From positions 54,884,029-54,948,028 of the forward strand of contig OX579633.1 in assembly GCA_951230915.1 (NCBI GenBank): a DNA stretch of 64,000 bases, given 5' to 3'. How positions within the stretch are numbered: the first letter of the stretch is position 1; each line of letters begins with the position of its first letter. This document shows, one piece after another, positions 23,609 to 60,941 of this stretch. The position numbers were made by a program, and so were the translations under genes. The notes beneath the pieces are model-generated. The model saw only the letters and a list, made by a program, of their open reading frames with translations. It was not told the DNA's origin and searched no databases. Source of the DNA: Antitrichia curtipendula. Taxonomy: Eukaryota > Streptophyta > Bryopsida > Hypnales > Leucodontaceae.

Positions 23609-23842
23609 GTAACTCTTAAACATTCATAGGGCATAGTATATATGTTGACGTATAATTGTCACTTACTATCAATAAGAAATTTTAATTTGGGATCTCAAGT
23701 AGTTCATAAGAACAACATTGATCTATTCTCCAATTTCTTTGTTGATATGAAATGTAATAGAGGTGTGGATCCATTCCAAATACAAGAAAAATACCCTGTA
23801 TTGTAGGGATCACAGCGGCACGCTCAATCGTTTAGGGGTTAA
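23609..23842 (+). mobile_element. TTAA element, class A (234 bp)
   Basis: Left end decayed (GTAACTCTTAAAC), right end CGTTTAGGGGTTAA intact. It shares ATTTGGGATCTCAAGTAG, TTGATCTATTCTCCAA and AGCGGCACG with the copies at 31921, 36765, 48955 and 57556. The length of 234 bp equals the intact copies. Confidence 0.85.
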
Positions 23843-25896
23843 ACTAGGGTTAACAAAAACGAAAAATGTCCATACTGATGCCCCGTACTCAAAAAGAGAC
23901 CTAACCACAGAAAAGCTGAAACACGGAGCATTGTGAATGTTATACATTTTTACGTAATCTGGTCCAAAATACAGAAAAATCTAATGGTTGACCTTAGATT
24001 TGTACAAATCATATTATTTGTTGAAAACTTGAGTATCCCAAAGAATATATTTTAAAAGTAGGCTTGTCATTTAAGGATTGGTATAGTCTACAGGTAGGCT
24101 AAATTAAGCATGAACTAATTGGTGGCTTGAAGCGTATCCTACTTCCAACCAATAGCCTTGTAGCTACATTGCCAAGCATCATTTCTAATTTCAGTTTTGG
24201 TTACTATATTACATTTCAGTAAAGTTCTTTTTGTATTTTTTAAAACACAATCTTATGTTATCAAACCATGAAAATTACTGAAGAATTTGTTAGATTTCAC
24301 ATATTTGCAGTTTTTGAGCAAAATTTATTATTTGTATGTATTGAATGAAAACAAATAAATTCAACCGTGTTAAGTTTTTCCATTGGATGCAATTAGTCAC
24401 AAATAAGGTAATTAAATGTCTAGAAATCTTTAGGTCGTTCTCACTTTGCAATTCCTTATTCAACTTTGTACTCCCATTCCATGAAGTGGTAAAGAGGCAA
24501 AGATGAGTTAATAAAAAAAATGATTGATTATTTTATGCAGTTTTTTTTTATGTCAAGTGGCTCCCAAATTGAGTTTCTATTTCTACTAAATCCAAATCTT
24601 GAGAGTGCATCGCTTTGACACAAAAGCTTTTGAGACATGTGGCCATGTAAGCGCTCATGAGAGGACTTGAAACTTGTAGCATGGTGTGAAGCTACAAGCC
24701 ATATTTACAAACTTTCAACCAATCAAAACTTAGAAATTTAGTGGATTGGTGGGACTTGGGACATGTTGGGAGCATTTAGGGACTTAGTATGAATAACCAA
24801 TTAGGGTCTCTATATTAAGAATCTAGGTCATCAAAGTTTAGGTTACCAAAATTTCAATACACATGGCCTCATAGAGGTCTCAAACATAATGAAATTAGAG
24901 CACAATAAAAGCCTTTCTCTTACTTCTAAAGTTCTTGAGCCAAACATTTGAGGTCATAATTTCAAACATTATAAACATAAAAGAGATGAAATGAAGGAGG
25001 CCAAGTAGAATTGTTGAGATTTAAGTTCCATCTTAAAGTATAAATTGCCAAAATAACAATAATGATAGTACATTAGTTTTTTTTGTTATACTAAAACTTG
25101 ATAACACCTTGATGGCCACAAATTCGCCTTCTTTGTTTAATGAACTTAAATTTTGGTGTTCAAGCTTGGCTTGATTTTGTCTTTGAAGCTTTAAAATGAT
25201 TTCCAAAATTTTGGACTTCATTCTTAATGAAAGGACCTTTACATTGATTCCACTAAGTGAACTTCCAAGTTGTGAGGATTGAAACATGTTAGGGTTCCAA
25301 AACGTTTCCAAATCCTAGTGTACTGTAAATTGGCCCTTAGGGATGGTTCACATTGTATCCCATGTCTCACCTTTACAAATCCAAATTCAACTTTATATCC
25401 CAACTTTATTAGGCTGAAGAAAGTGTTAAAAGAACGCCCAAGCATTTTGTGCAAAGTATTGTTGGGACTGGGCTCCCACTTTCTTAGCACAAAAACTTGT
25501 GAAACGCAAATATTTGTGAAACATTTTTCCATGTAGACAATTTAAAGTGAAGTGTGACATTGAACATGGTGAGAGCAACCATGCTAGACTTGGATTGGAA
25601 AGATGTAAAAACAACATCTAATTTTTATAATGCGAACTTGTTTGTCTTTTTTTATATTTCATGATTCCTAGCCAGCACCCTAAGTCCTCAATTTCAGCTT
25701 CCCCGCCAATCAGATTTTGAGGATTCAGGAACCGCCCTGGTTTTCTTTTGTCTGAATGCGAACCCAAAAACTGTACTTTCCCGTGATTTTATTGTTTATT
25801 GTTGGAGTTTGGATATGGCCACATCAGCATTTCCACTGGGGTTCTTCTGTCATTGAAATTTTGGCAGTGTAGAAATCGATCGAGTAATGAAGCTAC
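23843..25896. other. AT-rich intergenic DNA
   Basis: No supported gene. An unremarkable 85-97 codon frame exists on each strand at 25239-25536, but neither shows a domain or a splice pattern. Confidence 0.45.
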
Positions 25897-25899
25897 TTA

Positions 25900-26270
25900 G
25901 GACGGCTTCACACTATGACCGGCCAAGTCAAGAGGCTGTGGGCTACTGTGATTGAGTGGCTAAACTTTGGTGAGAGGCCAAGAGAATTTGCTGAAAATAG
26001 AGAATAAATGCTGAAATTGACAACATTTATTGCTGAAACTGATGGCCTTTGGGCAAAAGTTTGGGTCTAGCATTTTTCTGGACCCAAACTCTTGCCTAGA
26101 GGCCGTCAATCTTGGATGATAAAGTTTGTCATGTAGGCAAATGATGGATGATGGCCTGTGGAGTTTGGCCTCTAGTGTGAAGGCGTGAGCGGCCGGACTC
26201 TCGATTTCGTGCAATCTGATTAGTACACACCAGCGACCTCTCGACCTTTGGCCATAGTGTGAAGCCGCCC
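25900..26270. mobile_element. Tourist-like MITE (371 bp)
   Basis: Terminal inverted repeats GGACGGCTTCACACTATG at the left and CATAGTGTGAAGCCGCCC at the right, flanked by TTA (25897-25899 and 26271-26273). A TTA/TAA 3-bp duplication is the PIF/Harbinger (Tourist) pattern. The centre folds: AGTTTGGGTCTAG pairs with CTGGACCCAAACT around 26060-26095, and flanking bases extend the stem. Confidence 0.85.
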
Positions 26271-26273
26271 TTA

Positions 26274-27124
26274 CATCCATGGACATGAATGCCATGTGCA
26301 GCATATGGATGAAAATTTGTTTATTTATCGAAAACATTTCAGATTCATCCAAAACGAGTAATATCATCTCCAGACTCTGAAGCAATTGAGCATTTTCGTT
26401 CACTTGAAAAGGTAGAATATGTCGTCAAATTCTCAAAAGAGAAACTGTACCAAAATCTTAAAAAATCGAAACCCTCATGGCTCAAATGGCCCAACTCATT
26501 GATTCAAATTTGTTTGATTTTTGAAATTGTTAAAAGGTATCGGCTCCCTAAAATATCAAAAATCATATTATCATAAGAGCAAGGTAGGGTTGATAAAATC
26601 GTGTCAAATAATTGTGAAGAAAAACATGTTTTGACAAATGTCAATATTAGGAGAAAATGAGGCAGTTTAATGGCTGTTCATCTTGTATTGTGGCAAATAG
26701 CTGCTTTGTCCAAAAAGGACATTAACCCATAAACGATTAAGGGTGTTCTTTGAGAAAAAAATCTCAGAAACTCCCAACTTTTAGTGCATTTCCCAAAATT
26801 AGACATTAATTACTTTTTTTGAATTTCAATGTACAAAAATATGTTGAACAAAAAAGTCATTGTGTACAAAAAAATTCAGCCCATTTGACTGCGTGGATTG
26901 TATGATTATAAAGTTTGAAGTGAAAAAATCAACTTTTTTTCATTCCTGCACAACAAGGACACCAAACTTCAACCCTTGCTTCAAGCATCCTGGAGTAAAA
27001 TTTTGCTCTACACAAAATGAAATTTTTGACCATTCATAGGTATATGATATTAGGTTCACTCATGATAAATTTCAAAAGCAAATGTAGAATCTAGCTTATT
27101 TTAAATCACCAAGCGATGCAAGGA
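26274..27124. other. AT-rich intergenic DNA
   Basis: Nothing recognisable. TTAACCCATAAACG near 26725 resembles a TTAA-element end, but no partner end was found. Confidence 0.45.
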
Positions 27125-27127
27125 GGT

Positions 27128-27416
27128 CACTACAAGAAAAAGGGCCATTTTTTACTAAGGATTTTGACTAATGAAACACTGAAACTACTAAGACTTTTTT
27201 ACTAGACTAGTATCAATCAAGTGGTTTGATTTATGACTACGTGTAGTCATAAACTAAATTACACATGACTACGTGTAGTCATACATTAAATTGTTTATGA
27301 CTAACTAAACTATTTATGACTACATGTGGTCTTAAATACTAGTCAAAAAGTCCTAGTTGTTTTGGTCTTTTTTGTAATCAAAATTCTTAGTCAAAATGGC
27401 CCTTTTTCTTGTAGTG
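27128..27416. mobile_element. Miniature CACTA element (289 bp)
   Basis: Perfect inverted ends of at least 24 bp, beginning CACTACAAGAAAAAGGGCC and mirrored at the right end, flanked by the 3-bp duplication GGT (27125-27127 and 27417-27419). These are the classic En/Spm (CACTA) features. Inside, the near-palindrome ATGACTACGTGTAGTCAT occurs twice plus a third variant. It has no coding capacity, so a CACTA transposase from elsewhere must have moved it. Confidence 0.95.
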
Positions 27417-27419
27417 GGT

Positions 27420-28881
27420 GAAGTGAAATGGCAATAAACTAGTCATTTTTCAATATTTCTTGTGCAATGATAAAGTTTTTTATTTGAAATCTAAATAGGA
27501 AAAAGTTAGAGATAAACATTTAAAATATGTGAAAAAAAACTCAATTTTTTTGAGACTACAAGATAATAGGGCCTAAAAAGTTAGATTTTTTTTGTTTAAA
27601 TTGTCTAGACATAGTTAACAAAGTTTGACTCCTCTTAGAATGTGATTTGAGAGCTCTTATTTTTTTTGACAATTGTATGCCATATTATATTAATTATATA
27701 CACCCCATTTTTCAAAAGTTGATAAATATTTTTGCATAAGGTTCTCCAAAGATGCCCAAAGTACCCAAGCTACCTAAATTCTTTTGGGCAACATAACTTT
27801 TGAATTGAGCATCCAATTGGGGAAAAATTTACATTTCCACTTGGGAGATATATATTTGCACCATGTGTAACAATTTTGAGAACACCCAATAAAAATTAAC
27901 TTCATATGACACTATAGGTAGTTTATTCTATTATCATTGGGCCTTTGACAAAAAAATCAATAAAAAAAATAGTTATAATATATCAAATGACATGATTATG
28001 GTCTCATTTCAAAGATAATCAAGTCAAGGTTTTGTATTAAGTTCCAAATTCCTAAATGAGTAAAGCATGGGTTAGTTATTAAGGTTTAGTGAGGTATGGT
28101 CAAGGTTCTGCTTAAATTAGAAATTGCCCTATTGGCACTTCTTTATTGCTTCCTTAAAGGTTTCATTGTCATACATGATAATATTTTGTCATTTTCATCT
28201 TTGAACTCTTCTTCCTTTCTTTGGCCTCTGTGGTCATCCACAAGTGCTAACTTAGTTAACAGTTTTCATTTGATTTTGGTATTTTGCAACTAACGTTGCT
28301 ATAGCTAAGGCGCTGAGGCTATAAATTGTATATCTAACTAAGGTCTTCATAGCTAATAATCTATATCTTTTGCAAATTTTGGTCAAATGGAATAAAATTT
28401 GCACTACTAGTAAAGAACTCCATTAGGAAGAAATTTAGCCCTCCAAAGGGCTGTGAGTTTGGCTATTCCCAATATTGGGAACTGGCCCCAGCTGGTCGTC
28501 AAAAATACTTATATAAAAAAAAAAATCCAAAAAAAATCCAAAAAAATCCAAAAAAAGTCTTAGAAAAAATTAAGAATTTTTTTAGGTTTTTTCTTTCTTC
28601 TAAAATTATTAATATCTGACGTGGTCGGTCTTCGACCAGCTCAATCTGCACGAGCCAGAAGTTCCCATGCTTTTGGAGAAGGGGCCCTTTCATGGGCTCA
28701 AATCCCTCCTAATGTAATGTCTTTCTTGCAATGCTTGAAAACTTGGATTTAAAACTAAACCCTAAAAGATATGAATTTATAAAGATAGAAAAGTGATAAT
28801 AGGAGCCAAGTGATAGTAAGGTAAACTACATGTACCCAAATTCTCAATTGTCCATTGAACAGACACTTGGTCCTTTAAGAA
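27420..28881. other. AT-rich intergenic DNA with an A-rich tract
   Basis: No gene seen. At 28518-28556 a run of AAAAAAATCC repeats occurs. Around 28480-28680 imperfect inverted pieces (GGGAACT...AGCTGGTCG against CGACCAGCT...AGTTCCC) hint at an old MITE without clear ends. Confidence 0.4.
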
Positions 28882-29781
28882 TTAATCCCTAAAAGACCAA
28901 GTTGTCTTTTGGGGAAACATAGAAATTTTGGGCAGATACATGTGATTGGAGATTTTTGTACTTTAGATTGAAATTCTAATAGAAGGTGGGGACGACAAAT
29001 TTCTTTTAGTTGCACTAACTTTCATGACAGTTGGAATTATGAACAAAAAGTTATGGTCTAATATGTTGCTTTTTACGTTTGGCAAGCAGATTGAGCAGTT
29101 TTTAAAAATCATTTTTGTCAAAAATTAAAAATTGAAATTGGTTTTGGAGATTTATATGTATGTGGAGATCTTTAAATCATTCCATTTGGATTTATGAGAT
29201 GAAAGTTATGAGGAGTTTTTGTTTGCAGGCAGTTATGGATTCTCTACTCTAAAATGAACTTTGAAGTCTCTTATTTTATTCAAATTTCAATATTTTTGAG
29301 AATATGTAAGACCAAAGGTTGTAAAATGTTACTCACAACATTACAACAGTTGGGATTGAGTTTCTTTTTATTTCCATAACTAGATTATTAATATTTGATG
29401 TTTTAATCATTCTCTACTTCTTTTTACTTCCTATTTTTTTCTCACATGTTGCACAATTCCAAATGGTTTGAATTTTTTTTAAAGGCACCTTACTTAGGCT
29501 GAGTATGGAATCTAGAGAAGTACCAATGACATGGCCTTTTCCTCTTAGGAATTTCACCTTTTGAAGGTAGCTGCCCGGTTTTCCACATGACCAAAAGAAA
29601 CTTTTCAAATTGTTCTATCTTCCAATCCACTTGGTGAAAAAATCTGAATTTTTTTCCACATCTTTTGAAACTATTAGCATATGCAAAAAAGCGCTTTTGT
29701 TTTTAGATGTGGTTGATGCTCTAAAAATGGCAGTTTTTGAGAGTTTTTGGTAAAAACTGAGCTTGGTCCTTTAGGGGTTGA
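28882..29781 (-). mobile_element. TTAA element, class B, inverted copy
   Basis: Ends TTAATCCCTAAAAGACC and GGTCCTTTAGGGGTTGA (both slightly mutated), 900 bp. It is a near-identical inverted copy of 34503-35424. A 64-codon frame on the minus strand (29414-29608) encodes the same peptide as the plus-strand frame in the other copy, which simply reflects recent common origin. Confidence 0.9.
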
Positions 29782-31920: not shown

Positions 31921-32154
31921 TTAACCCCTAAACGCCTGTAGGGAACCGTATATACGCTGACGTATAATTGTCATTTGCTATCAATTAGAAATTTCAATTT
32001 GGGATTTCAAGTAGCTCACTCGAACCGCATTGATCTATTCTCCAACTTCTTTGTTGGTCTCAAATGTAGTAGAGGTGTGGATCTATTCCAAATACACTAA
32101 AAATACACCATATTGTACTGGCCACAGCGGCACGTCTCGTCGTTTAGGGGTTAA
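31921..32154 (+). mobile_element. TTAA element, class A (234 bp), intact ends
   Basis: Left end TTAACCCCTAAACG, right end CGTTTAGGGGTTAA: a perfect inverted repeat with TTAA on both sides. Best-preserved class A copy and a good reference for the class. Confidence 0.95.
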
Positions 32155-33530: not shown

Positions 33531-34250
33531 TTAACCCCTTTGTTCCTTTGGGAGACAAATGGAATTTTGGGCATGTACCCATGGCTAAATTATTTTGTGC
33601 GATTTTTTGAAATTTTTATGGATGATGGGGACATCAAATATTTACGTGCCCATCTAATTTTTTTCATATTGACATTTATGGAAGAAGTTTAAAATGAATT
33701 TTTTGAAAACACCCAAGATTAGATAGTTCAAAACCTTCTCTTAAAAAATGTATTTTTTATAGATAAGTATTTAGAATAGATTCTTTAGACGTATATGTAG
33801 GCGGGGAGCGTTGAATCATTCAATTTTCATTAACGAGATGAAAGTTATGAGAAGTTTTTGTTTGCTAGTAGGTGTGGTTTTGAGAGAAATCACACCTAAT
33901 CCCAAACAAAAACTTCTCATGACTTTCATCTCATCAATCAAAATTGAATGATTCAAAGCTCCAAACCTATATATAAGTCTAAAGAACCTATTTCATGTAT
34001 TTATTTTTTAAACATGCAATTTTGAAAAAGTTTTTAGATTGACCAATGCAATCTTGTTTGTTTTCTAGTAATTCATTTTTAACTTCTTCAATAGATGTCA
34101 ATATGAAGAAAAGTTTAGATGCACATGTAAATGTTTGAATTCCCTATCATCCGTAAAAGTTTCAAAATATCACACAAAGTACTTTAATTATAAGAACATG
34201 CCCAAAATCCTGTTTGTCCCCAAAAAGGGCCAACGGTCCTTTATGGCTAA
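33531..34250. mobile_element. TTAA element, fold-back dimer (720 bp)
   Basis: The left half from TTAACCCC (33531) and the right half ending CTAA (34250) are reverse complements over nearly their whole length of about 360 bp, meeting near 33885-33900. Both halves start with the class C/E left end (GGGAGACAAATGG..., TTTTGGGCATG). It looks like two left halves joined head to head. Confidence 0.88.
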
Positions 34251-34502
34251 TTAGCCCCATTTGCAAAACCAATCCATTATGATTCTTGCCCAAAATGTAC
34301 ACATTTTGGTCATGATACAAGGCCAATGTAAGTACATGTATATATTGAACACTTTTAAAGTCAATACTGTCTTCTTAACGAGTCCAAAAAACATATTGCA
34401 AACTTTGACACTAATCCTCTTTCACTTATCAACAACACTAAATAAAAATTGTAACTTACTGAGGTATTGTAGTCATGAATAGATTGCTTTGACCCTTGCA
34501 TG

Positions 34503-35424
34503 TTAACCCCTAAAGGACCAGGCTCAGTTTTTACCAAAAACTCTCAAAAACTGCCATTTTTAGAGCATCAACCACATCTAAAAACAAAAACGCTTTTTTG
34601 CATATGCTACACCAAGATCTTGTAGTGCAATAGTTTTTGAAGATGTGGAAAAAAATTCAGATTTTTTCACCAAGTGGATTGGAAGATAGAACAATTTGAA
34701 AAGTTTTTTTTGTCATGTGGAAAACCGGGCAGCTACCTTCAAAAGGTGAAATTCCTAAGAGGAAAAGGCCATGTCATTGGTACTTCTCTAGATTCCATAC
34801 TCAGCCTAAGTAAGGTGCCTTTAAAAAAAATTCAAACCATTTGGAATTGTGCAACATGTGAGAAAAAAATAGGAAGTAAAAAGAAGTAGAGAATGATTAA
34901 AACATCAAATATTAATAATCTAGTTATGGAAATAAAAAGAAACTCAATCCCAACTGTTGTAATGTTGTGAGTAACATTTTACAACCTTTGGTCTTACATA
35001 TTCTCAAAAATATTGAAATTTGAATAAAATAAGAGACTTCAAAGTTCATTTTAGAGTAGAGAATCCATAACTGCCTGCAAACAAAAACTCCTCATAACTT
35101 TCATCTCATAAATCCAAATGGAATGATTTAAAGATCTCCACATACATATTAATCTCTTGAACCAATTTCAATTTTTGTTTTTTCCAAAAAAAGTGGTTTT
35201 TTAAAAACTGCCCAAGCTGCCTGCCAAACAAAAAAAACCACTTATAATGCCATAACTTTTTGCTCACAATTCCAAACGTCATGAAAGCTAGTGCAAATGA
35301 AAGGCATTTGTTGTCCCCACCTTCTATTAGAATTTCAATCTAAAGTACAAAAATCTCCAATCAGAGGTATCTGCCCAAATTTTTTGCCTTTCCAAAAAAG
35401 GCAGTTTGGTCCTTTAGGGGTTAA
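34503..35424 (+). mobile_element. TTAA element, class B (922 bp), intact ends
   Basis: TTAACCCCTAAAGGACC at the left and GGTCCTTTAGGGGTTAA at the right, a perfect inverted repeat of 17 bp. Its inverted twin is at 28882-29781. It contains no transposase; the 71-codon frame at 34674-34889 is unlike any transposase motif. Confidence 0.95.
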
Positions 35425-36103: not shown

Positions 36104-36105
36104 TA

Positions 36106-36492: not shown

Positions 36493-36657
36493 TACCCAGA
36501 ATTGATGGCATGCAAGTAAGAAAAACATGGAAAATCATCCACGTGGGGACGTTCATCCATGTATTCAGCTATGGTTAGTGACTTCCATCCAATTGTTTGG
36601 CAAACTTGTTGTTTCTTTGAGAGGGGTTTGATACTTTCATCCATTTTTCATCCAGCA

Positions 36658-37802
36658 TTAACCCCTAAAGTCCTGAATACCTATTTTTGGGCAACCTAGC
36701 AATTTCTATGAGTTTTTTATGTTTTCATTGAAATTTTCAAACATGATGTGTTCAAGGAGTAGCTTTAACCCTTAAAGGACCATAGAGCATAGTATATATG
36801 TTGCGATATAATCAATATTTGTTACCAGTAAAAAATTGTAATTTGGGATATCAAGTAGCTCACTAGAACCGCTTTGATCTATTCTCCAACTTCTTTGTTG
36901 ATCTCAAATGCAATAAAGGTGTGAATCTTTTCCAAATACAAGAAAAACACCTCATATTCTATTGGTTGTAGCGGCACGCTATGTCCTTTAGGGGTTAAGA
37001 CACAATAAATTTCATAACTTTTGACTTCATGATTCAAAAGTTATTGTATGATATGTTGTTTTCTTTGCTCTTTGGGTAGACAAAATTTTATTTCAAATGA
37101 CATTTAAACTTCTTTTTTTGTAGAAATTGGTTCTTTAGATTTATGTATACAAGGGAAGCTTTGAATCATTCAAAATTTTAATCAATGAGATGAAATTCAT
37201 GAGGAGATTTTGTATGCAAGTAGGTCTAGATTCTCTACTCTAAGACAAACTTTTGGAAGTCATTTATTTTACTCAGTTTTCAATATTTTGAAAAAAAACA
37301 AAACCAAAGGGTGCAAATTGTTTATTATGACATTCCAACCATTGGGATTGACATATTTTGTTTCCATAATGAAGTTCTTAACAATTTAGTGGTTTGAATC
37401 ATTCTCTATTTCTTCTTATTTACTATATTTTTCCCATGTGTTGTACAATTCCAAATGATTTGAAAGTTTTCAAGTGTGTATCCAACTTGCTTTGAAGAAA
37501 AAATCCAAAAAATTACAACCATTTTGAAAAAAATTCATGCAAATATGACCTTGTAAAGTGTAGTTGTCCAGATATTTGCAAGGACAAAAAATGGCTTTTT
37601 GTCAATTCAAACTCAACTATCTTACAATTTACATAGTGAAAATTTCTGATATTTTTCCCACATCTTCTGATACTAGTGTAGTACAAGATCTTACGGTTAC
37701 ATATGTCAAAAAATGATTTGCTCCTAGAATTTGATATTTGTATTAGAAATGGCAATTTTGGAACGATTTTGGTGAAAATTTGGCTTAGGACTTTAGGGTT
37801 AA
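36658..37802 (+). mobile_element. TTAA element, class B, with nested class A
   Basis: Ends TTAACCCCTAAAGTCC and GGACTTTAGGGTTAA. Length 1145 bp, of which 230 bp are a class A copy inserted at an internal TTAA. The interior aligns with the class B copy at 57786-58716 (opposite strand), which lacks the insertion. Confidence 0.93.
36765..36998 (+). mobile_element. TTAA element, class A, nested in class B
   Basis: 234 bp, TTAACCCTTAAAGGACC to TCCTTTAGGGGTTAA. Host sequence on either side (GGAGTAGCT and GACACAATAAATTTC) is continuous around one TTAA at 58590-58593 in the other class B copy, giving an empty-site comparison. Confidence 0.95.
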
Positions 37803-37941
37803 ACTGAGGTAGCATTTTACCAAGAGTTAATAAATCGGTATCAGGTTCATTCTGATTATGGGATTTATCTATCTCGATGTATTTTAGTATTACTGTGACC
37901 AACCATACGATATTCTGAAGAAGTTCTCACAAATGATTTCT

Positions 37942-38892
37942 TTAACCCCTAAAGGATCATTGTCCCTATGGGGGATAACTGGGATTTTGGGCATATACCT
38001 ATGGCTAAACTACTATGCATGATTTTTTAAAACTTTTGTTGGAGATGAGAAATCATAAGATCTATGTGGGAGTCTAAATATTCTTCATTTTGACAATTAC
38101 TGAAGAAGTTACGCATGAATAACTGAAAAACAAGGGAGAATCAGGCAGCAAAAAAAGAATTGTAATGATTTAAAATAAAATTTCAAAATTGGTTCTTTAG
38201 ATTTTTATGTATTTGGGAAGCTTTGAATCATTTAGTTTTGATATATGAGATGAAACTTATGCAAAGTTTTAGTTTGCTGGTAGGTACGGGACTCTCAAAC
38301 CTCCATTCTTTTTCCCCCTTGTAATACTTGTTGCTTTACTTTTTTGAGCTCTTTGTGTATTTGTTTTTTGACTCTTTTTTTTGCAAGTTGTATTAGACTA
38401 AGATTCTTTGGTTTCCACCATTGGGATCAAGGTAATTCACGTTTTTGAATTTTACACAAATCCTCCAATTTTGCCTAGTGTATATGCAAATTTCATGACC
38501 TTACAACAATGTAGGATTTTAGAAAGTATGATCCCACACCTTTGTTTCATTTGAAATTTCTCCTAAACACACCTAACTTGGTCTTTTACATGGAAAAAAT
38601 AAAGCTCAACTTTGCGTAGAGCAATATTTTTGATATAGGAGAGGTCAAAGGCTTCTAAAAAATTTGGGTAGCAATGAAAAAGACTTTTTTTGCACTTCAG
38701 ATGTGAATATCCCACTCCTCTTCTACTAGAATGAGCTGATTTTTTTCACACAAGTACCTCCCGTAGCCTAGGGCAAGACCTTATGGTTGGATTTCCAAAA
38801 AATATATTATTTCCTACATTTCTCTTCATTCCCTAGAAGTGACAGTTTCAGTGATTTTCACAGAAAAATGGGCTCGGTCCTTTAGGGGTTAA
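37942..38892 (+). mobile_element. TTAA element, class C (951 bp)
   Basis: TTAACCCCTAAAGGATC to GGTCCTTTAGGGGTTAA. It is a diverged relative of the copies at 50198 and 54624, sharing GGGACTCTCAAACCTCCATT and most of the interior. Confidence 0.93.
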
Positions 38893-39053
38893 TGACGTGG
38901 ATGGATGTTCAGATGTGAATTACTTTGACATTTATTCCATCTAACAAGTACAATACGTAAGTTTCTTGTCAAGGCTCCTTAGTTGCAATGACCCTATTCT
39001 ATAAATAGGGTTTAAAAACAATTTAATAAAGGGAAACTTTCACAATCAATACC

Positions 39054-40005
39054 TTAACCCTCAAGGGACCGACTATTGTCTCGACTATTGTCCGTTCTAG
39101 GGACAAATGGTATTTTGGGCATGTATCTATGGCTAAACTACTTTGTATGACCTTCCCAAACTTTTATTGAAGGTGCGGAATTCAAAGACCTACTTGGAAA
39201 TGTAACTTTTTCTTCATGCCAACATTTAGTGAAGAATTTATGCATGAATATCTAGAAAAAGTTGCTCCACAGGCAACCCAAAAATTTCTTACAATTTTCA
39301 TTTATTTCAAATAAAATTATGAAATAGGTTCTTTAGACTTAGATAGATGTGGGGAGCTTTGAATCATTCAATTTTAATAGATGAGATGAAATTTATGAGA
39401 AGTTTTAGTTTGCGGATAGGTCATAGGTGTGGTTTTGCTCCAAAAAAATAATTCTAAACTTTGTTTTTGAATGCAAATTTCACATTTTTGTAAAAAAAAC
39501 TATTGAAAAGGGGGAAGATTGCTTGCTAGAACAATCTCACCATTGGGATTATTGTGATTCCATTCCATTGCAAGGTTATTAACAATGTAAGATTTTGTTC
39601 AATCTCAGACCTTCTTCTATTTAATGGTTTTTTTTTAGAATGAAAATCAAGTATTTTTTGTTTTGATTTTTTCTTGAAGATTCTCAACTCAATTCTCCAT
39701 CATAAAAAAAAACCCTCAAAACTCCATGGTGCAAAAATTTGAAGTTAAAAAAGTTCAAAGTCAAAGAATCTAGTCGTGCAAGTTGCAGAAATGCTTGTTT
39801 TTTACACTTTAAAGCAAAAAGTTTGCAATCTATGAGGTCAAAGTTTCTAAGTTTTGAATGACGCATTCTTATGCAAGTCTACTACAAGATCCTATGGTTT
39901 GATATGCAAAAACACCAATTTCCAAACTTTTTTACTCTTTGCCATAGTAGTGGCAATTTTGAGTGTCTTTTAACAAAATAAAGTCCATGGTCCTTTAGGG
40001 GTTGA
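39054..40005 (+). mobile_element. TTAA element, class E (952 bp)
   Basis: TTAACCCTCAAGGGACC to GGTCCTTTAGGGGTTGA. The left third resembles class C (TTTTGGGCATGTATCTATGG); the right two thirds match 58965-59881 (AAGTTCAAAGTCAAAGAATC, CCATGGTCC). It is 161 bp from the class C element, so insertions cluster here. Confidence 0.88.
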
Positions 40006-45841: not shown

Positions 45842-46073
45842 TTAACCCCTAAAGGGCCCGAACGCCCTTTGCTGCCGTATGTACGTTTGCGTATAGAAAC
45901 GTATTTGAGCTACTATGAAGGTTTTCCAACTTTTTTTATGTACCTACCATCATACAACACTTCAATATGTATGGTTATAACACTTAATTTTTAGCTGATT
46001 CAAACTTCTGAATAATGATTGCAACTGTATTTGGTACTGTATCTCCAGAGCCCAAGGGTCTTTCAGGGGTTAA
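45842..46073. mobile_element. TTAA element, 232 bp, divergent class A size
   Basis: TTAACCCCTAAAGGGCCC to GGGTCTTTCAGGGGTTAA. The interior has little likeness to the other 234-bp copies (CCGTATGTACGTTTGCGTAT near the left), so it is a separate small subfamily. Confidence 0.85.
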
Positions 46074-48954: not shown

Positions 48955-49186
48955 TTAACCCTTAAACATCCATAGGGCATAGTATATACGCTAATGTATG
49001 ATTGTCATTTGCTACCAATAAGAAGTTTTAATTTGGGATCTCAAGTACCTCATTAGAACTACATTGATCTACTCTCCAACTTCTTTGTTATTCTCAAATA
49101 TAATAGAGGTGTGGATCATTCCAAATACAAGAAAAACACCCCATATTGTACTAGTCAGAGCGGCACGTTTAGAAAATTAGAGTTAA
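48955..49186 (+). mobile_element. TTAA element, class A (232 bp)
   Basis: TTAACCCTTAAACATCC to a decayed right end AGAAAATTAGAGTTAA. The interior keeps GGGCATAGTATATACGC, ATTTGGGATCTCAAGTA and AGCGGCACG. Confidence 0.88.
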
Positions 49187-50111
49187 CAACATTTTGAAAT
49201 TATTTCCATATATAAATTGAACTTTTTAAAATTGAAGTATTAGATTTTTTTTTTTTGTGACTTTCCCAACAATTATAAGAACAAAGATAAATTTTGAATT
49301 ATGCATAAATATCAATTAATATTTTGGACTAATACATGATAATAATTTTGGATTACATGAACTTTATTATCTATTATAAAAAAAATATTTTATTTTAGTA
49401 TTACAATTTAAAAGCTCACATATATTTTTGAACCTTTAAGAACTTAAAAAAAAAATTAAATTTTTAAAATTTAGAAAACTTGGAAATGATTTTGATATGT
49501 ACAGCCAATAATTTATCAATTACAAAAGGTCAATTACCTAAAATCAATGGCAATTTCTTTTGAGAAGTTGATTGGTGGATTATTCTAAAATAATCAGGTA
49601 AAATTCAAAATATAATGAACCAAATTTTTTTTAAGGTAATTATTCCACTTCTTAAATTAAAATCACCATACTTTTAGTTTCTCTTACTACCAATTTGACA
49701 TTTAAAAATCCAATTAACATTACTATTGACTAAATTTAAGATTTTTGAAGCTTCACGTCAATAAAATTACAAATAAATGTGCCTAAATTAAATAACATTG
49801 CTATTGGGGATGTTTTAATTTATACTTATTGAAATTCATTAATATGCAAACACTTCTATGTAAATTTTAGATCATAATCACAACTAATTTAAATTTCATA
49901 TCTAAGTAAATAAAATACATATTAATGTTCTACTAATTCTGTAACTATAAAAAAAGGAAACATGTAGTTTTTAGAGATGATATTTTTTATGGTCAAACAA
50001 CTTTAAAACAAATAGAATAATCATTATAAATTTTTTTTGGTATTAATAGTAACTTCTATCAAAAGATTTAAATACTATTAAGCTGTTGTTAATTATAGTG
50101 CAATTGTTTAT
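49187..50111. other. AT-rich interior of the CACTA element
   Basis: No coding frame and no repeat boundaries seen. Confidence 0.5.
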
Positions 50112-51483
50112 GGGAATTGATATGTGCACATCTAGAATTTGATATATGCACACTTGGAGAAGGAGAGAGGAAATTTTAGATATTTATCATCAACAAGTTA
50201 ACCCCTAAAGGACCATTGTCCCTTCGGGAGACAATTGGGATTTCGGACATGTACCTATGGCTAAACTACTTTACGTGATTTTCTGAAACTTTTATTGGAG
50301 ATGAGAAATCATAAGATCTACATGGTAATCTAAATTTTTCTTCATTCCAACAGTTATTGAAGAAGTTATGCATGATTAACTGAAAAACAGTGGACTGTCG
50401 GGCAGCAAAAAAAAAAAAAAAGTTGCAGTTTTTTTAATTTTTTTTAAAAATTGGTTCTTTAGATTTTTATGTATTTGGGAAGCTTTGAATCATTCAATTC
50501 TGATGAATGAGATGAAAGTTATGCAGAGTTTTAGTTTGCGGGCAGGTATGGGACTCTCAAACCTCCATTCTTTTTCCCCCTTGTAAAACTTGTTGCTTTA
50601 CTTTTTTGAGCTCTTTGTGTATTTGTTTTTTGACTCTTTTTTTTTGCAAGTTGTAGTAGACTTGGATTCCTTGGTTTTCACCATTGGGATCAAGGTTATT
50701 CACGTTTTTGAAATTTACATAAATCCTCCAATTTTGCCTAGTGTATATGTAAATTTCATGACCTTACGGCATTGTAGGATTTTACAAAGTATGATCCACA
50801 CCTTTGTTTCATTTGAAATTTCTCCAGCACATTCCTAACTTGGTCTTCTACATGGGAAAAATAAACCTCAACTTTGCGTAGAGCAATTTTTTTGCTGTTG
50901 GAGCAATCAAAGGCTTCTGAAATTTTTGGGCAGCAGGGAAAAAAACTTTTTTTTGCACTTCAGATGTTAATATCTCACTCCTCTTCTTTTAGAATGAGCT
51001 GAATTTTTCCCACAAGTACCTCCCATAGTCTAGGGCAAGATCCTATGGTTGAATTTCCAAAGAAAAACATTTTTTCTACCTTTCTACTAACTCCCCCCAA
51101 AGTGGCAGTTTTCAGTGATTTTCACAGAAAAATGGGCTTGGTCCTTTAGGGGTTAAATTGGCAAGTTTAAATTTAGATTTGAGATCTTAGTTTGCCTAAA
51201 ACCACAAAAATAGATACAATTGAAAAATGCCTAGTGGAAAAATTTAGTTCTTTTTTGCAAATAAGGGTAAAATTAATCATTTGCCCCCTAATTAAGCTTT
51301 TCCACTAGGCATTGTTTAGTTGTATTTTTCTTTGTGGTTCTAGACTAAATCAAGGTCTCCAAATCTAAATCTAAATTTAATATTTTCAATTTTAGCTTGT
51401 ATATTGATGATAAGTATCTAAAATTTACCCCTCTCCCTTAGGTGTGCATATATCAAATCCTAGATGTGCACATAACAATTCCC
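50112..51483. mobile_element. Fold-back MITE split by a TTAA element
   Basis: Left arm GGGAATTGATATGTGCACAT at 50112 and right arm ending ATGTGCACATAACAATTCCC at 51483 are mirror images for about 200 bp, including GATATATGCACAC, TTTTAGATA, TTATCATCAA and TAAATTTAGATTT. A class C element (50198-51156) sits in the left arm. Without it the MITE is about 417 bp. Confidence 0.82.
50198..51156 (+). mobile_element. TTAA element, class C (959 bp), intact
   Basis: TTAACCCCTAAAGGACC to GGTCCTTTAGGGGTTAA, 959 bp including both TTAA. It is about 98% identical (some 16 differences by eye) to 54624-55582, which has exactly the same length. Confidence 0.96.
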
Positions 51484-52392: not shown

Positions 52393-52522
52393 GATTCATT
52401 ACCACTAGGGCAAAGTCCAGCAAATTGGTTGCTCCAAACCAGTTTCATAGGGTTCAAGTTGCACCTTCTCTAGTTGCAGCGATTGAATTATTGGCGGAGG
52501 ATAATGTCCTAGCTTGTGCAAG
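52393..52522 (+). pseudogene. Possible captured exon of 130 bp
   Basis: A stop-free segment between an acceptor-like GGTTTAG and a donor-like AG/GTACTAGG. Its 43 codons read like real protein (KSSKLVAPNQFHRVQVAPSL then AAIELLAEDNVLACA). The family is not recognised. The last 40 bp recur at 54243-54285 in the second tandem copy, with stops. Exon capture by CACTA elements is known; here it is an inference from one exon-like piece. Confidence 0.4.
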
Positions 52523-55500
52523 GTACTAGGTTCCTTTTACTAGTCCAACTTTTTTAAAACCTTAAACCATTGTGTGGTATTGTATTTTTTTAGAATATGA
52601 AATGCAGTTGTTTTTCAGTAATTTTGTAGTGATCACAATAGTACAAATACCTAATTCAGTTAGTTTGTAGTGGTGCCACAGTAGTACAAATACCTAAGAG
52701 CAACTGCATGAATAATGCCCCAACACAATCCATCGGACTAAACCCTAAAAAGGCTCTATTGCACTCATCAATGTTGCCATGGGTTTCTAAGGACGTCTTA
52801 AAAATCCAAATCCCTAAACCAAACTAAACACATAGGAAGTTGTTCAAAAAGTAGTTGTACTCTAGTTTTTTTTAATGATCCTGCAGTAGTAGCTTAATGT
52901 TGGAGCAACTACGGTACGACTGCGTGACCTATGATCCAATATACCCAATTCATGCTCACTTGAGAAAGGCTTTTCTACATTTGATAAAGATGCTTAGTCA
53001 TGCAAGAATGCTAAGAATAAATATTCTAAATCAAAGTTCAAAATTAGGGATCCTAGAAAAAGAAAAAAAATGATTTTATTGTAGTTGTTGTCTAGTTGTT
53101 GCATAGTAAGCTTAGTAGAGAAATGCTAGAGCATCTACACTGCAATTGCATCAGCAATTCCTCAGCATAACACACTCAAACTGACGTCAATTAGTTGTTA
53201 CATCACTTGACATGTTTGCCTCAAGAAATCCAAGAGTGTTAGGAAAAAGTTACATAAACCAAATTTAAAAAGTAGAGAAATGTTTTGAAAAATTAGTTGT
53301 TTGTCAATCATTCATTAACTGTCCCACAATAGTATAGAAATGCTGCAACAACTACATGGTCACTAAGTGACATGTGACCCAACATATTCCATTCACACTG
53401 ACCTTTAAAAGGCATTATTGCACATAACATTATTGCTTGGTACATCTAAGGACTAGGGCTGTCAAAAGTAATTTATAGGAATTGAATTTAAATAATAGGG
53501 AACTAAAAAGAGAAATAATTGTACCGTAGTTGTTGTTGAATTGTCCCACAGTAGTAGAACAATGTTGGAAAAACTACATTGCAACTGCGTGAAATATTCT
53601 CCATACATAACTCATTTACACTGACCCTCAAAAAGGCGTTAATGCACTTGACAACATTGCTTAAGGACATCCAAAAGTGTCAAGAACAATTTTCACAAAT
53701 CAATTTTTAAAATTGAGTTTAAAAAACAATAGTTATACTTTAGTCATTGGTAAGTTGTCACAGAGTAGCAAAAAAATGTTAGAACCACAACATTGCAACT
53801 ACATTATGATTGCTCCAACATAATTCATTCACATTGACCTCCAAAAGATTTTTTCGGGCACAAACAATTGCCTAGGGCAGGAAAAATTTGAAAAATCCCT
53901 TTTCATGAGTGAATTATAAAGAAGATAGTAAAAGAAATGATTCGCAATTGTGCCACAGTTGTTTTTGAGTAATGTTACAGTGGAATCTAAACCAAGACAC
54001 AATTGAAGGACAATTTTGATGATAAATATGGACTACATCCTCAAGTTTCATCCGGCCAATTATTAAATTTGTTGGTCAGGAACAAAATTCTTGGATGCAG
54101 TTGTATCACAATTGCAATTACAACTGCAATACAACTTTATTGAGTCCATGTCAGCATTTTTTTTGTTCACTTCTCTATTCAGTGTTGTTGCGAACGTGCA
54201 ATTGTAAAGAAGCAATTGTATTTCACCTCATTTCCTACTAGTGAATTGAGTTATCTGTAGAGGATAATGTTTGAGCTTGTGCAAGGTACTAGGAACCCTT
54301 TACTTGTCTAGAGAGTTTTGAACCTTAAACTAATGTATGGTACTATATATTTTTTAAACATGAAATGTAGTTGTTTATTAGTAGCGCTACAGTAGTGCAT
54401 TTACCTAAGAGCAACTGCAATGCGACTGCATGAATAATATCGTAACATAACCCATCAACAATTGCACACTCACTTAAAATGGCTCTATTACACTTGTCAA
54501 TAGCAGTGTGGGTTTTTGAAGATGACGTGAGAATTGTAATTCCTAAACCAAATCAAGAACATGAAAAATTGTTAAAGATGTAGTTGTACTCTAGTCCCTT
54601 TTTAATGGTCCCGCAAGAGTAGCTTAACCCCTAAAGGACCATTGTCCCTTTGGGGGACAATTGGGATTTCAGGCATGTACCTATGGCTAAACTACTTTGC
54701 GTGATTTTCTGAAACTTTTATTGGAGATGGGAAATCATAAGATCTACATGGGAATCTAAATTTTTCTTCATTCCAACAGTTATTGAAGAAGTTATGCATG
54801 ATTAACTGAAAAACAGTGGACTGTCGGGCAGCAAAAAAAAAAAAAAAGTTGCAGTTTTTTTAATTTTTTTTAAAAATTGGTTCTTTAGATTTTTATGTAT
54901 TTGGGAAGCTTTGAATCATTCAATTCTGATGAATGAGATGAAAGTTATGTAGAGTTTTAGTTTGCGGGCAGGTATGGGACTCTCAAACCTCCATTCTTTT
55001 TCCCCCTTGTAAAACTTGTTGCTTTACTTTTTTGAGCTCTTTGTGTATTTGTTTTTTGACTCTTTTTTTTTGCAAGTTGTAGTAGACTTGGATTCCTTGG
55101 TTTTCACCATTGGGATCAAGGTAAATCATGTTTTTGAATTTTACATAAATCCTCCAATTTTGCCTAGTGTATATGTAAATTTCATGACCTTACGGCATTG
55201 TAGGATTTTACAAAGTATGATCCACACCTTTGTTTCATTTGAAATTTCTCCAGCACATTCCTAACTTGGTCTTCTACATGGGAAAAATAAACCTCAACTT
55301 TGCATAGAGCAATTTTTTTGATATTGGAGCAATCAAAGGCTTCTGAAATTTTTGGGCAGCAGGGAAAAAAACTTTTTTTTGCACTTCAGATGTTAATATC
55401 TCACTCCTCTTCTTTTAGAATGAGCTGAATTTTTCCCACAAGTACCTCCCATAGTCTAGGGCAAGATCCTATGGTTGGATTTCCAAAGAAAAACATTTTT

Positions 55501-57142
55501 TCTACCTTTCTACTAACTCCCCCCAAAGTGGCAGTTTTCAGTGATTTTCACAGAAAAATGGGCTTGGTCCTTTAGGGGTTAATTTTGGAGCAACTACTGC
55601 ACAACTGCGTGACCTATGACCCAATATACCCAAACCATGCTCACTTGAGGAATGAGGAAGGTATTTGTATGTTTGAAAAAAATGCCTAGTACATGCAAGA
55701 ATGCCAAGAATGAAAATCTTAAATTAAAGTTCGAAGAGTTGAAGGTTCAAAAAAACAAAAAAAAATGATTTTATTGTAGTGGTTGTGTAATTGTTACCAA
55801 ATGAGCTTAGTAGAGAAATGCAAAAGCAGCTACGTTATAACCCCATTATTAGTGCCTTAGCATGACATAGTCAATTTGACAGGTAGTTGTCACAACACTT
55901 GACATGTCCGCATAGGAAATTCAAAAGTGTTAAGAGAAGTTTATGTTATCCAAATTTAAAAAGTAGAAAATTTTTATGTAAAATTGGTTGTTTGCTAGTT
56001 GTTCATTAGTTGTCCCACAGTAATATAGAAATGGTGCAGCAACTATATTGCGACTAAGTGACCTGTGACCCAATATATTCCGTTCACACTGTCTTTTAAA
56101 AGGCAATATTGCACACATCATTAATCTTAGTACATTTAGGAGTGTCTAGAACAGGTTACATGAATCAAATTTATTTAATATGAGTCCCACAAAAAAATAG
56201 TTATGTTGTGGTTGTTGTTGAACTGACCTACAATAGTATAAGAATATTGGAACTCCTATATTACAACTACGTGAGATAAGCCCCATATATAACCCATTTA
56301 TATTGACCCTGATGAAAACGTTAATGCTCTTGACAATGCTGCATAATACACCTTGGATTGTTAGAAATAGGTTACATGAACTGAATTTAAATAATAATGA
56401 AGAAAAAATAATAGTTGTATTGTAGTTGTTTTTGAATTATCCCAAAGTAATAAATTTTTTTGGAACAACTACATAACAACTGCGTGAGGTATGTCCCATA
56501 TATAACTCATTCACACTGATCATGAAGAAGGCAATGAATGCACTTGACGACGCTGCTGAATGAAATCCAAAAGTGTCAAGAACAATTTATAGAAATTAAT
56601 TTTAGATATTAAGGAGATTAGAAAATAAAAAGTCATAATGTAATTGTTTATGAGTTGTCACAGAGTAGCAGATAATCATTAGAACAACTGCGCTGCAAAT
56701 GCTTCAACAATATCCATTCACACTGTCCTCAAAAAAATTATTTTGACCCTAAACATTTGCCCAAGGCAAGGAAAATTTGAAAAATTCTTTTTTTTGAGTG
56801 AATTATAAAGAAAATAGTAAAAGAAATGACTTGTAGTTGTGGCATAGTTGTTTCTCAGTAATGTTACAGTGGAATCTATATTTACATACAACTAGAGGAC
56901 AATTCTGATGAAAAATATGGACTACATCCCTAAGTTTCATCCGGCCAATCACTGAATTCGTTGGTCAAGGACAAAATTCTTGGATGTAGTTGTATCACAG
57001 TTGTGCGCAATTGTAATTACAACTAAAATACGACTGTATTGAGTCCATGTCAGCATTTTCTTTGTTCACTTCTCTATTCAGCGTTGTTGCAGACGTGCAG
57101 TTGTAAAGTGGCAGTTGTATTTCACCTCATTTCCTACTAGTG
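52481..57142. repeat. Tandem duplication of the CACTA right end
   Basis: Copy 1 is 52481-54242, copy 2 is 54243-57142 (1.94 kb without the TTAA element). Both begin with GAGGATAATG and GCTTGTGCAAGGTACTAGG and end with TTTCACCTCATTTCCTACTAGTG. Within each copy about five or six diverged subunits of roughly 210-225 bp recur, marked by AGTTGT...CCCACAGTAGTA, GCAACTAC, CATTCACACTGACC and AAAAAGGC. Confidence 0.8.
54624..55582 (+). mobile_element. TTAA element, class C (959 bp), intact
   Basis: TTAACCCCTAAAGGACC to GGTCCTTTAGGGGTTAA. The flanks GAGTAGC and TTTTGGAGCAACTAC are continuous at one TTAA (52894-52897) in the other tandem copy, where the element is absent. This is the clearest empty site in the window. 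Confidence 0.97.
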
Positions 57143-57555
57143 AATCGGGGGCTGGTCAGTCTATTAAAAAATGACCGATTATTTGTTAGATTGGGGTCCG
57201 GAAAAGGCTTTTGTCATACACTTACCTTGGCAACATGGTACTAATATATAGAGGATATGACATTAGTTCTTAATCAAAGAATGCACTAGCTGTAAGGTGA
57301 GAAGGTGAACGGGGAAGTTTTGGAGGGTACGTCCTCCAGACAGGCTTGCAAGAGAGTTGTGGGAACATAAAACCCTGGTTGTGTCTACTCGTCAAGTAAG
57401 TCAAGTTATGCGCATTGTTAAGCTTGGATATAGAACTCAATTCCTAAAATTGAGAGTTCAAGTTGTGAAATTGAGAGCCCAAGTCAATGGCTACTATGTC
57501 CATAGGGCACAAGTCATCTGTATTGATAACTAGTTTGTAAACCCATTTAACCAAG

Positions 57556-57789
57556 TTAACCCCTAAACGTTTCAATGACCCTTTGCAACCAGTACAATAC
57601 AAGGTATTTTCCCTGTATTTGGAGTGGATTGACACCTCTACTACATTTGAGACTAACAAAGAAACTGAAGAATAGATCAATGCGGTTCTAGTGAGCTACT
57701 TGAAATCCCAAATTGAAATTTTTTATTGGTAGCAAATGACACTTATACGTCAGCGTATGTACGGTTCCCAGGGAACGTTTAAGAGTTAA
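57556..57789 (-). mobile_element. TTAA element, class A (234 bp), reverse orientation
   Basis: TTAACCCCTAAACG at the left; right end AACGTTTAAGAGTTAA slightly mutated. It shares its right TTAA (57786-57789) with the class B element that follows. Confidence 0.93.
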
Positions 57790-58716
57790 CCTCTAAAGCA
57801 CTAAGCTCATTTTTTCACCAAACCGCTCTAAAACTGCGACTGCTAGGACAAGTACCAAATTTTAGAAAAAAACTTCTTTTGACAAATGTAGCCGTAAGAT
57901 CTTGCACTACACTAGTATAAAAAGATGTGGAAAAAAATTCAGGAGTTTTCACCATGTAGATTGTTAGATATTTCAATTTGAATTAACAAAAAGTCATTTT
58001 TTGTCTCTGCTAAAATCCGGGCAGCTGCACTTCACAAGGTCATATTTGTATGGAAAAAACTCCAAAATGATTGCAATTTTTTGCATTTGTTTTTCAAATC
58101 AAGTTGGGTACACACATAAAAAATCTCAAAACATTTGGAATTGTAAAATACATGGAAAAAAGGTAGTAAGTAAAAATAAGTAGAGAATGATTCAAACCAC
58201 TAAATTGTTAATAACTTAATTACAAAAATGCAAAATTCCAATTCCAATGGTTATAATGTTGTGATAAAGAACCTACATCTTTTTTTTTTTTTTTTTTTCT
58301 AAAACATTGAAAATTGAGCAAATTAATGGACTTCAAAGTTTATTTTAGAGTAGAGAATCCATAACTGCCCACAAACAAAATCTTCTCATAACTTTCATCT
58401 CATTGATCAAAACAAAATGATTCAAAGCTTTTCAAGTATATGTAAATCTTAAGAACCAATTTCCAAATACAAAATTCAAAAAATGCAATTTTTCAAAAAA
58501 AAAATTGGCTGCCCGCTAAGCAAACAAAACTACATATTGTGCAATAACTTTTGAACCATGAAGGCAAAAGTTATGAAAATTGTTGAGCCTTAAAGCTACT
58601 CCTTGGATACATCATGTGTGAAAAATTCAAAGAAAACAAATGAAAACTCCATTTGTAGTGAGTTGCCCAAAATTGCTATGTTGCCAAAAAAGGGGGTCCA
58701 GTGCTTTAGGGGTTAA
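57786..58716 (-). mobile_element. TTAA element, class B (931 bp), reverse orientation
   Basis: TTAACCTCTAAAGCAC to GTGCTTTAGGGGTTAA. It carries an unoccupied TTAA at 58590-58593, the site used by the nested class A in 36658-37802. The pair 57556-58716 together interrupts a TTAA in the loop of a host hairpin. Confidence 0.93.
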
Positions 58717-58964
58717 ATGAGTTTACAAAGTAGTAAAAAAATAAATTCTACTTAGCATTCATTTAGAATCCATTTAGCATCCATTTAGCTTAGGTCAATC
58801 TATTTAATTAGCACCCAATTGGCATCTATTTAACATCCATTTAGCATCCATTTAGTACAAGACTTAACATCTATTTAACATCCGCTTAGCATAGTTTGAG
58901 ATTTATATTTAAAAAAATCTAATTATAAAATTTGAACTTCTACTTTTGTCTAAATTCACTTTGA

Positions 58965-59881
58965 TTAACCCCTAAAGGACCATTGTCCCTATGAGGGACA
59001 AATGGGACTTTGAGCAGGTACCTACAACCTCAATTTTTGTCCTAATTTTTTGGAATTGTTCTTGAAGATAGAAAGCACATTATCTTTTGGGGAAACCAAT
59101 TTTTATTCCAATTGGTGCCAAGGAGAAAACTAATGCCCAAATAAGCACAAATTTGGGGACTAGGGGCAACAAAAAAACATTCCTGTAGAAACTTGATTTT
59201 TTTTTTCTCATAGATTATGTCTTTATCTACATTTGAAGCTTTGATTCATTCCATTTGGACTACTTATGAGAAAGTTATGAGAATGTTGTTTTTTGGGCAA
59301 CTCAAGCATCTTCTTGAAAAAGTAACTATTGAGCTTCCAATTTTGAATGCATTTTTAACATTTTGTCAAAAAAAAACTACTGGAGATGGTGAAGTTTGCT
59401 TTCTAAAACAATCTCACTGTTGAAATTATTGCATTTCAATTCCATTGCAGGGTTATTAGCAATGTAAGTTTTTGTTCACTCTTGTACCTTCTTATGCCTA
59501 ATGTTTTCTTAGAGAATGAAAATTAAGCATTTTTTCTTAAGGTTTTTTCCCAAGATTCCCAACTCAACTTCCCACCACAATCAAATAGAATGCAAACTAA
59601 GCGGTGCAAAAATTTTAAGTTAAAGAAGTTCAAAGTGAAATAGTCTAGTCAAGCAAGGTGCAAATGAAGTTGTTTTTTACATTTTAAATTCAAATATCTT
59701 CCATTATGTGCGGTCAAAGTTCTTGAGTTTTGTATGACACATTCTTACAGTAGTCTAGTACAAGATCCTATGGTTAGATATGCAAAATGCTTGATTTTCA
59801 AACTTTTTTACTCTTTGCCATAGAGGTGGCAGTTTTAAGTGTCTTTTGACAAGATAAAGGCCATGGTCCTTTAGGGGTTAA
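58965..59881 (+). mobile_element. TTAA element, class E (917 bp)
   Basis: TTAACCCCTAAAGGACC to GGTCCTTTAGGGGTTAA, relative of 39054-40005. The left subterminal part forms the stem TTGTCCC/GGGACAA. Confidence 0.94.
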
Positions 59882-59889
59882 ACTTGACT

Positions 59890-60086
59890 ATGCCATATTT
59901 AACTACTTCTGGACTATATGGAGAATTTTGGACTAGAGGGATTTCCCAAAACATGTGACAAAGATCATAGTGCACAACCAAGGATTGCATTTTTGACCTC
60001 GGTTTATGCACTTTCTATTCAGGGATCCCTGGATGCAGTTACTAATTTTGGACTTTCCAAAGTCCAGAAGTAGTTAAATATGGCAT
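59890..60086. mobile_element. Small MITE (197 bp), perfect 26-bp inverted ends
   Basis: 59890-59915 and 60061-60086 are perfect inverted repeats (ATGCCATATTTAACTACTTC...). No target duplication could be fixed. It lies in the right fold-back arm; the left arm lacks it. Confidence 0.75.
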
Positions 60087-60171
60087 GTGTAATCTACTCT
60101 ACATTAATTATCTTTAGTGAACTTGCAGTCTACTCTTTTTTAAGGTAGAAATTGAGCTAAAAATGGATTCA

Positions 60172-60941
60172 TTAACCCCTGGAGGACCAAAGAGCCCAAT
60201 ATGGCCAAATGGGTGCTTGGATGTGTGAAAGTAGATAAAAGAGGCATTTTGAGCTCAAGTTTTGATTTGCCACTCAAGTGCAAATGAAGTTTTTAGTTCA
60301 AAAAGATTTTCCAATTGGCTTGTTTATACTTGAAGCGCCTGCATTGCTCTAGATTCTACAAGGAATATGAAGAATGTTCTATTTTTTTCCACAATTAGGA
60401 GAAGAATGTCTTTGGGCAATTAAAGAGAGCGACTTAGAGAGTAGATGGGATGGATGCTCCCATGTCATGTATTATACAAGGAGAAGTTTGGTGATGTTTC
60501 ACTTTTCTTTCTTGATTTGGGCAAGGTTTTTGTAGCTCTAAAGTGAAGAGCTAGCGGAACCTAGTTACTTTGAGTTACCATATCTTTTGGAGTTTTTTCC
60601 ATTTGAGAGTTTTTTTTCCATCAAGTATAGCTAGACACAATCTCATGAGATCATCCATTAGGTAAATCTTTTTTTTGGGAAAAATTTGCATCAATGTCCA
60701 AAATCCATATTGTAAACTACTACTCAAATTGGCAAATATGAGATTCTCAACTGTGGGGATTTTGCAGATTTACTTGGATTTGAAATTGAACTGGTTCTAA
60801 CATTTGCTTTATAATTGTGTATAAAATGACCAATTCAGATTATGTAATTATTTGTTCAACTTTCCAAAGACTCAACAAATGTGTTGAAGGTTTCGTATTG
60901 AAATAATGCAAAATTTTCTTAGCAACACGCTTAGGGGTTAA
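60172..60941 (+). mobile_element. TTAA element, class D (770 bp)
   Basis: TTAACCCCTGGAGGACC at the left, GCTTAGGGGTTAA at the right; ends less alike than in other classes. The interior matches no other copy in the window. The left fold-back arm is continuous across the corresponding point (near 43335). Confidence 0.82.

Follow-up and report, generated by a model that had tools for sequence, protein, structure and literature searches.

The stretch analysed here (the window, 64 kb; positions are counted within it) lies in C1, a 56.4-Mb contig of an assembly of 400 Mb in 303 contigs, and between positions 23609 and 60941 it carries 18 short elements with C-rich inverted ends beside TTAA, which make up 12,923 bp or 34.6% of that interval. 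An earlier note on this DNA had described TTAA-bounded, CCCC-ended inverted elements at these 18 places, and they are real: 15 of the 18 are complete with both inverted ends, the named starts stand at TTAA in 17 cases and at GTAA in one, with a C-rich end following each, and the window has 29 matches to the end motif CCCCTAAAGGAC (at most 2 mismatches), against a mean of 3.1 and a largest value of 7 in 100 shuffles. Among the 30 outer tetramers of the 15 complete elements 27 are TTAA and the others are GTAA, TTGA and TTGA; the exceptions GTAA and TTGA named earlier were thus found again, while CTAA was not among the 30. The 234-bp family (A) has four complete copies, pairwise 75-82% identical, at 23609..23842 (GTAA on the left, TTAA on the right), 31921..32154 (TTAA at both sides), 36765..36998 (nested in another element, TTAA at both sides) and 57556..57789 (in reverse, its right TTAA common with the element at 57786), and a 234-bp copy at 48955..49188 (end approximate) keeps its left end intact and has lost the right one. 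Family B (900-959 bp) has eight copies: 28882..29781 (900 bp, ends TCCCTAAAAGAC and CCCCTAAAGGAC, right tetramer TTGA), 34503..35424 (922 bp, TTAA at both sides, in reverse 94% identical to 28882-29781), 37942..38892 (951 bp, TTAA at both sides), 39054..40005 (952 bp, right tetramer TTGA), 50198..51156 (959 bp, exact CCCCTAAAGGAC at both ends, TTAA at both sides), 54624..55582 (959 bp, exact ends, TTAA at both sides, 98.3% identical to the copy at 50198), 57786..58716 (931 bp) and 58965..59881 (917 bp, exact ends, TTAA at both sides); six pairs were measured, two of them 94-98%, two 87-88% and two 68-69% identical. Complete but outside both sets are 43639..45287 (1649 bp, B-related with extra internal sequence), 45842..46073 (232 bp) and 60172..60941 (770 bp, ends diverged), each with TTAA at both sides. 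Besides the copy at 48955, the imperfect elements are 33531..34251, with a long internal inverted repeat, left end TTAACCCC and a worn right end, and 36658..37803, an element of about 0.9 kb with a worn right end, interrupted by the 234-bp copy at 36765. The common inverted ends claimed earlier are C-rich throughout but are not one sequence: the eight 900-bp copies have exact AAAGGAC at 11 of their 16 ends, and the four complete 234-bp copies have AAACG at 5 of their 8. A candidate further element, beyond the 18, is marked by its ends only at 26722..28885 (left TTAACCCATAAACGAT, right TTCTTAAAGGAC reversed, TTAA common with 28882). Related repeat blocks with a spacing of about 215 bp flank the element at 54624 (53225-54246 and 55916-57145).

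The target was read at an empty site and across the genome. The element 57786-58716 is a paralogue of 36658-37803 that lacks the 234-bp insertion; it has a single TTAA (58590-58593), whereas the occupied copy has one on each side of 36765-36998, which shows the TTAA duplication directly. With regard to footprint-free excision, the empty site with one TTAA may simply be the pre-insertion state. The tetramer before CCCCTAAAGGACC was taken at 40 genome sites, the first 20 and the last 20 of 100 listed, all within the initial 5.7 Mb of C1; this second set was picked since plus-strand sites in it were absent from an earlier list and might have lacked TTAA. It was TTAA at 36, GTAA at 2, ATAA at 1 and TAAA at 1, that is, T at -4 in 37, T at -3 in 39 and AA at -2 and -1 in all 40. 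The base outside the tetramer (T 19, A 12, G 5, C 4) is AT-rich, yet not fixed; it had been described as varying freely, and all four bases do occur, although not evenly. In loci fetched earlier, places chosen for TTAA being left out, 43 of 52 ends had TTAA (ends counted, not elements). In the whole assembly TTAACCCCTAAAGGAC (at most 2 mismatches) was found at 39,168 places against 254 for the reversed control, and exact CCCCTAAAGGACC at 7,585 against 4. Exact TTAACCCCTAAAGGACC was found 0 times in viral contigs and a 959-bp copy had no match among plasmids, in collections not expected to hold the host.

A profile search of the assembly with PF13843 (DDE_Tnp_1_7), the piggyBac transposase domain, gave 907 first-look candidates, 116 of which were scored and the rest left unscored; all 116 lay above the cut-off (242-276 bits), many of them in open frames of 500-1261 codons, and the domain was found in 0 of 14 control genomes (their kind not stated). 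None of the 116 scored places lies inside the window, in line with the earlier statement that it holds no transposase, with the unscored candidates remaining. Eight of the 116 places and one neighbour were fetched for inspection. Longer copies that carry these ends and encode DDE_Tnp_1_7, the result named beforehand as decisive, were recovered three times: L031, L033 and L035 (contigs C1, C9 and C5) form one family of 6,990, 6,997 and 7,216 bp, 99.1-99.4% identical, whose homology starts and stops at TTAA between differing flanks. Each copy runs from TTAACCCCTAAAGGAC to reversed TTAACCCCTAAAGTTC (ends TTAACCCCTAAAGGACC on the left and, on the other strand, TTAACCCCTAAAGTTCC on the right) with PF13843 inside, and L031 has an open frame of 967 codons (PF13843 1.6e-77). 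That the boundaries agree in all three copies argues against a transposase gene nested by chance in another element. L034 and L036, mutually 99% identical, are a second subfamily with the left end TTAACCCCTAAAGGAC and 69% DNA identity to L031 over about 1.6 kb of transposase; L029 and L037 together give an element of 5,161 bp, bounded by TTAACCCCTAAACGAC and TTAACCCTTAAACGAC; and L030 and L032 have the right end TTAACCCCTCAA... Internal tandem repeats were seen 3' of the transposase (L031 5714-6125; L034 and L036 after about 6600), and the 7-kb copies differ in length at this array, which is long in the second subfamily. The in-frame stops in PF13843 matches were apparently mostly TAG, then TGA, with few TAA (not counted), the order that methylation-driven decay of CHG and CG cytosines might produce. 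One repeat (window 33017-33364, near 33531; also L029 5100-5441, L031 7731-7883 and L032 5608-5701) stands some 50-560 bp beyond the right ends of three distinct piggyBac elements, either as a chance abundant repeat or through a shared insertion preference.

The encoded protein agrees with this class. In an alignment of nine proteins (five own, two from metagenomes, one from a fish and one from a planthopper), D619, D708, D825 and D828 of L031 are invariant and aligned with the piggyBac motifs; in a 32-row alignment D619 and D708 are invariant, D825 is conserved in at least 90% and D828 is not among the conserved positions listed. Equivalents of the catalytic aspartates D268, D346 and D447 are therefore present by alignment, the piggyBac roles of D268, D346, D447 and D450 being those given in the excerpt of PMC2533014. 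Against the PDB (phmmer, E 0.01) only two sequences were matched, piggyBat (9c0f, 1e-21) and piggyBac (6x67, 3e-20). An AlphaFold2 model of 527 residues (mean predicted local distance difference test score 88.8) had 6x67 (1.5e-27) and 9c0f (2.2e-24), then Tn5, as best Foldseek matches, with a TM-score to the query of 0.66 for 6x67 and 9c0f and a root-mean-square deviation of 12-13 over the whole chain. As to the C-terminal cysteine-rich domain, a Cys/His pattern is visible in the alignment, but PF13842 had no match in 4 proteins (E 0.1). Of 31 matches in a protein search, the 10 closest had 44-70% identity and two others were from the fish and the planthopper. In a 36-row tree the five own proteins and the ten closest fall in one group (100/100). 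Midpoint rooting was used, and this group is a clade only with a root outside it; within the tree the own proteins fall in more than one lineage. The earlier assignment to piggyBac thus holds in domain, catalytic aspartates, modelled fold and TTAA duplication.

The window copies are tied to the transposase-bearing elements by their termini. At its left end L031 matches 28882-29074 (72% identity over 193 bp) and at its right end 37679-37805 (74% over 131 bp); other window copies gave additional matches at 65-92%. The copies of about 0.9 kb therefore share termini with the transposase-bearing family. The 234-bp family is probably served, to judge from the end sequences, by the element of 5.2 kb recovered from L029 and L037, its ends reading CCCCTAAACGAC and CCCTTAAACGAC. 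We hold it as nearly certain that the window elements (234 bp to about 1.6 kb) are native, non-autonomous DNA transposons of the piggyBac superfamily, which would be moved in trans by the full-length piggyBac elements of this genome. In such a scheme the transposase would bind the ends common to short and full-length copies, would excise elements without a footprint and re-insert them at TTAA, as piggyBac does, and the short copies would have derived from longer parents and spread by the parents' enzyme. Several findings weigh against this account. L033 and L035 each have one in-frame stop in the transposase frame; the right ends of L034 and L036 and the left ends of L030 and L032 were not found in the fetched stretches; and of the first 4 places fetched, one had both ends and a second only after its neighbour was fetched. 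Moreover, the window copies match the fetched transposase elements in the ends only (72-74%), which leaves each subfamily without a direct parent among these elements, no matched left end was found among them for the B copies with left CCATTGTCCC, and the 234-bp family and the 5.2-kb element have only about 16-19 terminal bases in common.

The host was placed by genes outside the elements. A uroporphyrinogen decarboxylase (UROD) exon on C1 was, over 69% of its extent, 81% identical to an EukProt SM... record (which we take, from its prefix and unconfirmed, to be Spirogloea muscicola), 79% to Diphasiastrum and 77% to Closterium, and three proteins were closer (90-92% identity); the listing covered 120 of 1,700 matches, and the length range of the search excluded proteins of more than about 388 residues. 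In a quick tree of 33 rows, none of them a moss, with the query filling 47% of columns, the host groups with the Spirogloea-like and Closterium proteins (Shimodaira-Hasegawa-like approximate likelihood ratio test 90), beside land plants (87). An open reading frame (ORF) 5 kb to the right of the window has a sub-threshold AP2 match (25.4 bits against a cut-off of 33.3) and ten close relatives (48-73% identity over 84-94% of its length), beyond which the matches are weak and mostly of domain length, Ceratodon included (3.5e-6). Taken together, the UROD grouping and the relatives of the AP2-type ORF lead us to see in the host a streptophyte and, probably, an alga of the Zygnematophyceae, judged from one gene in a tree without moss. 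Of the plant-type genome supposed in the earlier note, the streptophyte part stands, but the hint of a land plant is not supported: the UROD sequence lies beside the land plants of its tree and apart from them. We consider it somewhat more probable than the opposite that this is a native, recently active piggyBac lineage, amplified to copy numbers in the thousands in an alga that belongs to the closest relatives of land plants.

One rival reading traces the elements, with their transposases, to a contaminating or symbiotic organism and not to the green host. The 303 contigs of the assembly count in its favour, but C1 holds the window, transposase matches and the streptophyte-type UROD exon together, and 114 of the 116 scored PF13843 matches lie on C1-C10 and two on C218, and we regard such an origin as very unlikely. 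Membership in the Kolobok superfamily deserves even less credence: Kolobok elements likewise duplicate TTAA, but according to the excerpt of PMC9587614 their termini are 5'-RR, and the elements here have 5'-CC(C) ends (CCCC in the window elements), not RR, in inverted repeats. The Kolobok transposase is also a different one; PF13843 lies inside the long copies with these ends, so Kolobok is contradicted for the 7-kb family by its transposase, although no search of the genome was aimed at Kolobok transposases. There is next to no chance that these are mariner or PIF/Harbinger miniature inverted-repeat transposable elements (MITEs) with a TA or TWA target and a mere preference for the outer T and A, as the AT-rich flanks might suggest, because T at -4 and at -3 in 37 and 39 of the 40 sites and the duplication of all four bases, single at the empty site, exclude TA-only targeting, as the earlier note had expected, and the transposase between these ends is that of piggyBac.

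Other features of the window lie apart from this system. Copia- and gypsy-type ORFs (class by domain) are present, and a broken gene at 17914-20907 contains a DUF7869 (PF25273) piece at 19482-19655 among open pieces without clear Pfam matches; it is perhaps another transposon's. This remnant (18-21 kb in the window) was tried as a transposase for the elements and rejected: the nearest inverted end-like sites, 15537 (+, CTAA, 3 mismatches) and 22414 (-, TCAA, 4 mismatches), have the wrong tetramers, came up at a loose mismatch threshold and were taken as chance. A repeat of about 263-276 bp at 97-99% identity occurs at three places (2397-2672, 5219-5494 and 19659-19920), the third of them inside the DUF7869 remnant and the other two in the retrotransposon region, and looks like a recent small insertion family.

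The piggyBac superfamily is best known from animals, piggyBat being an element of a bat; insect piggyBac has ends starting with CCC, as here, in a shorter element, whereas the present elements reach a full length of 5-7 kb with open frames of up to 1261 codons. The Trichoplusia ni element (PDB 6x67/6x68) is alike in TTAA target and duplication, three-aspartate (DDD) transposase and fold and differs in sequence (20% identity over the fold alignment) and in the streptophyte host found here; piggyBat is the closest solved relative by sequence, with 20-21% identity over the fold alignment. MITEs of corals and of the ciliate Blepharisma, which we assume to be piggyBac-related, are likewise short elements amplified in a eukaryote; their sequences were not compared and their hosts are not green plants. 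On the plant side, a fern repeat table in PMC6890710 gives 1,230 PiggyBac copies by annotation, and one abstract (PMC10813416) states that piggyBac was isolated from insects, fungi and plants; the present elements are therefore not the first sign of piggyBac in plants. Among the literature matches listed we met no report of native piggyBac in bryophytes or streptophyte algae, and no priority is claimed; one moss match, in PMC10619864, was the word "piggybacking". A published statement has it that every DNA transposon found in plants leaves a footprint.

As derivatives of piggyBac the elements have an ordinary mechanism; what is unusual is their host and their number. At least 116 places with a piggyBac transposase domain, together with TTAA-bounded ends in the thousands, in one streptophyte show that the superfamily can abound on the plant side, and annotators gain a class that went unnamed in a large survey of plant MITEs. 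If the lineage is indeed native and recently active, the plant lineage would have a natural TTAA system that leaves no footprint, with enzymes and a MITE swarm of its own, contrary to the published statement just cited. The elements may also be a source for a native footprint-free tool.

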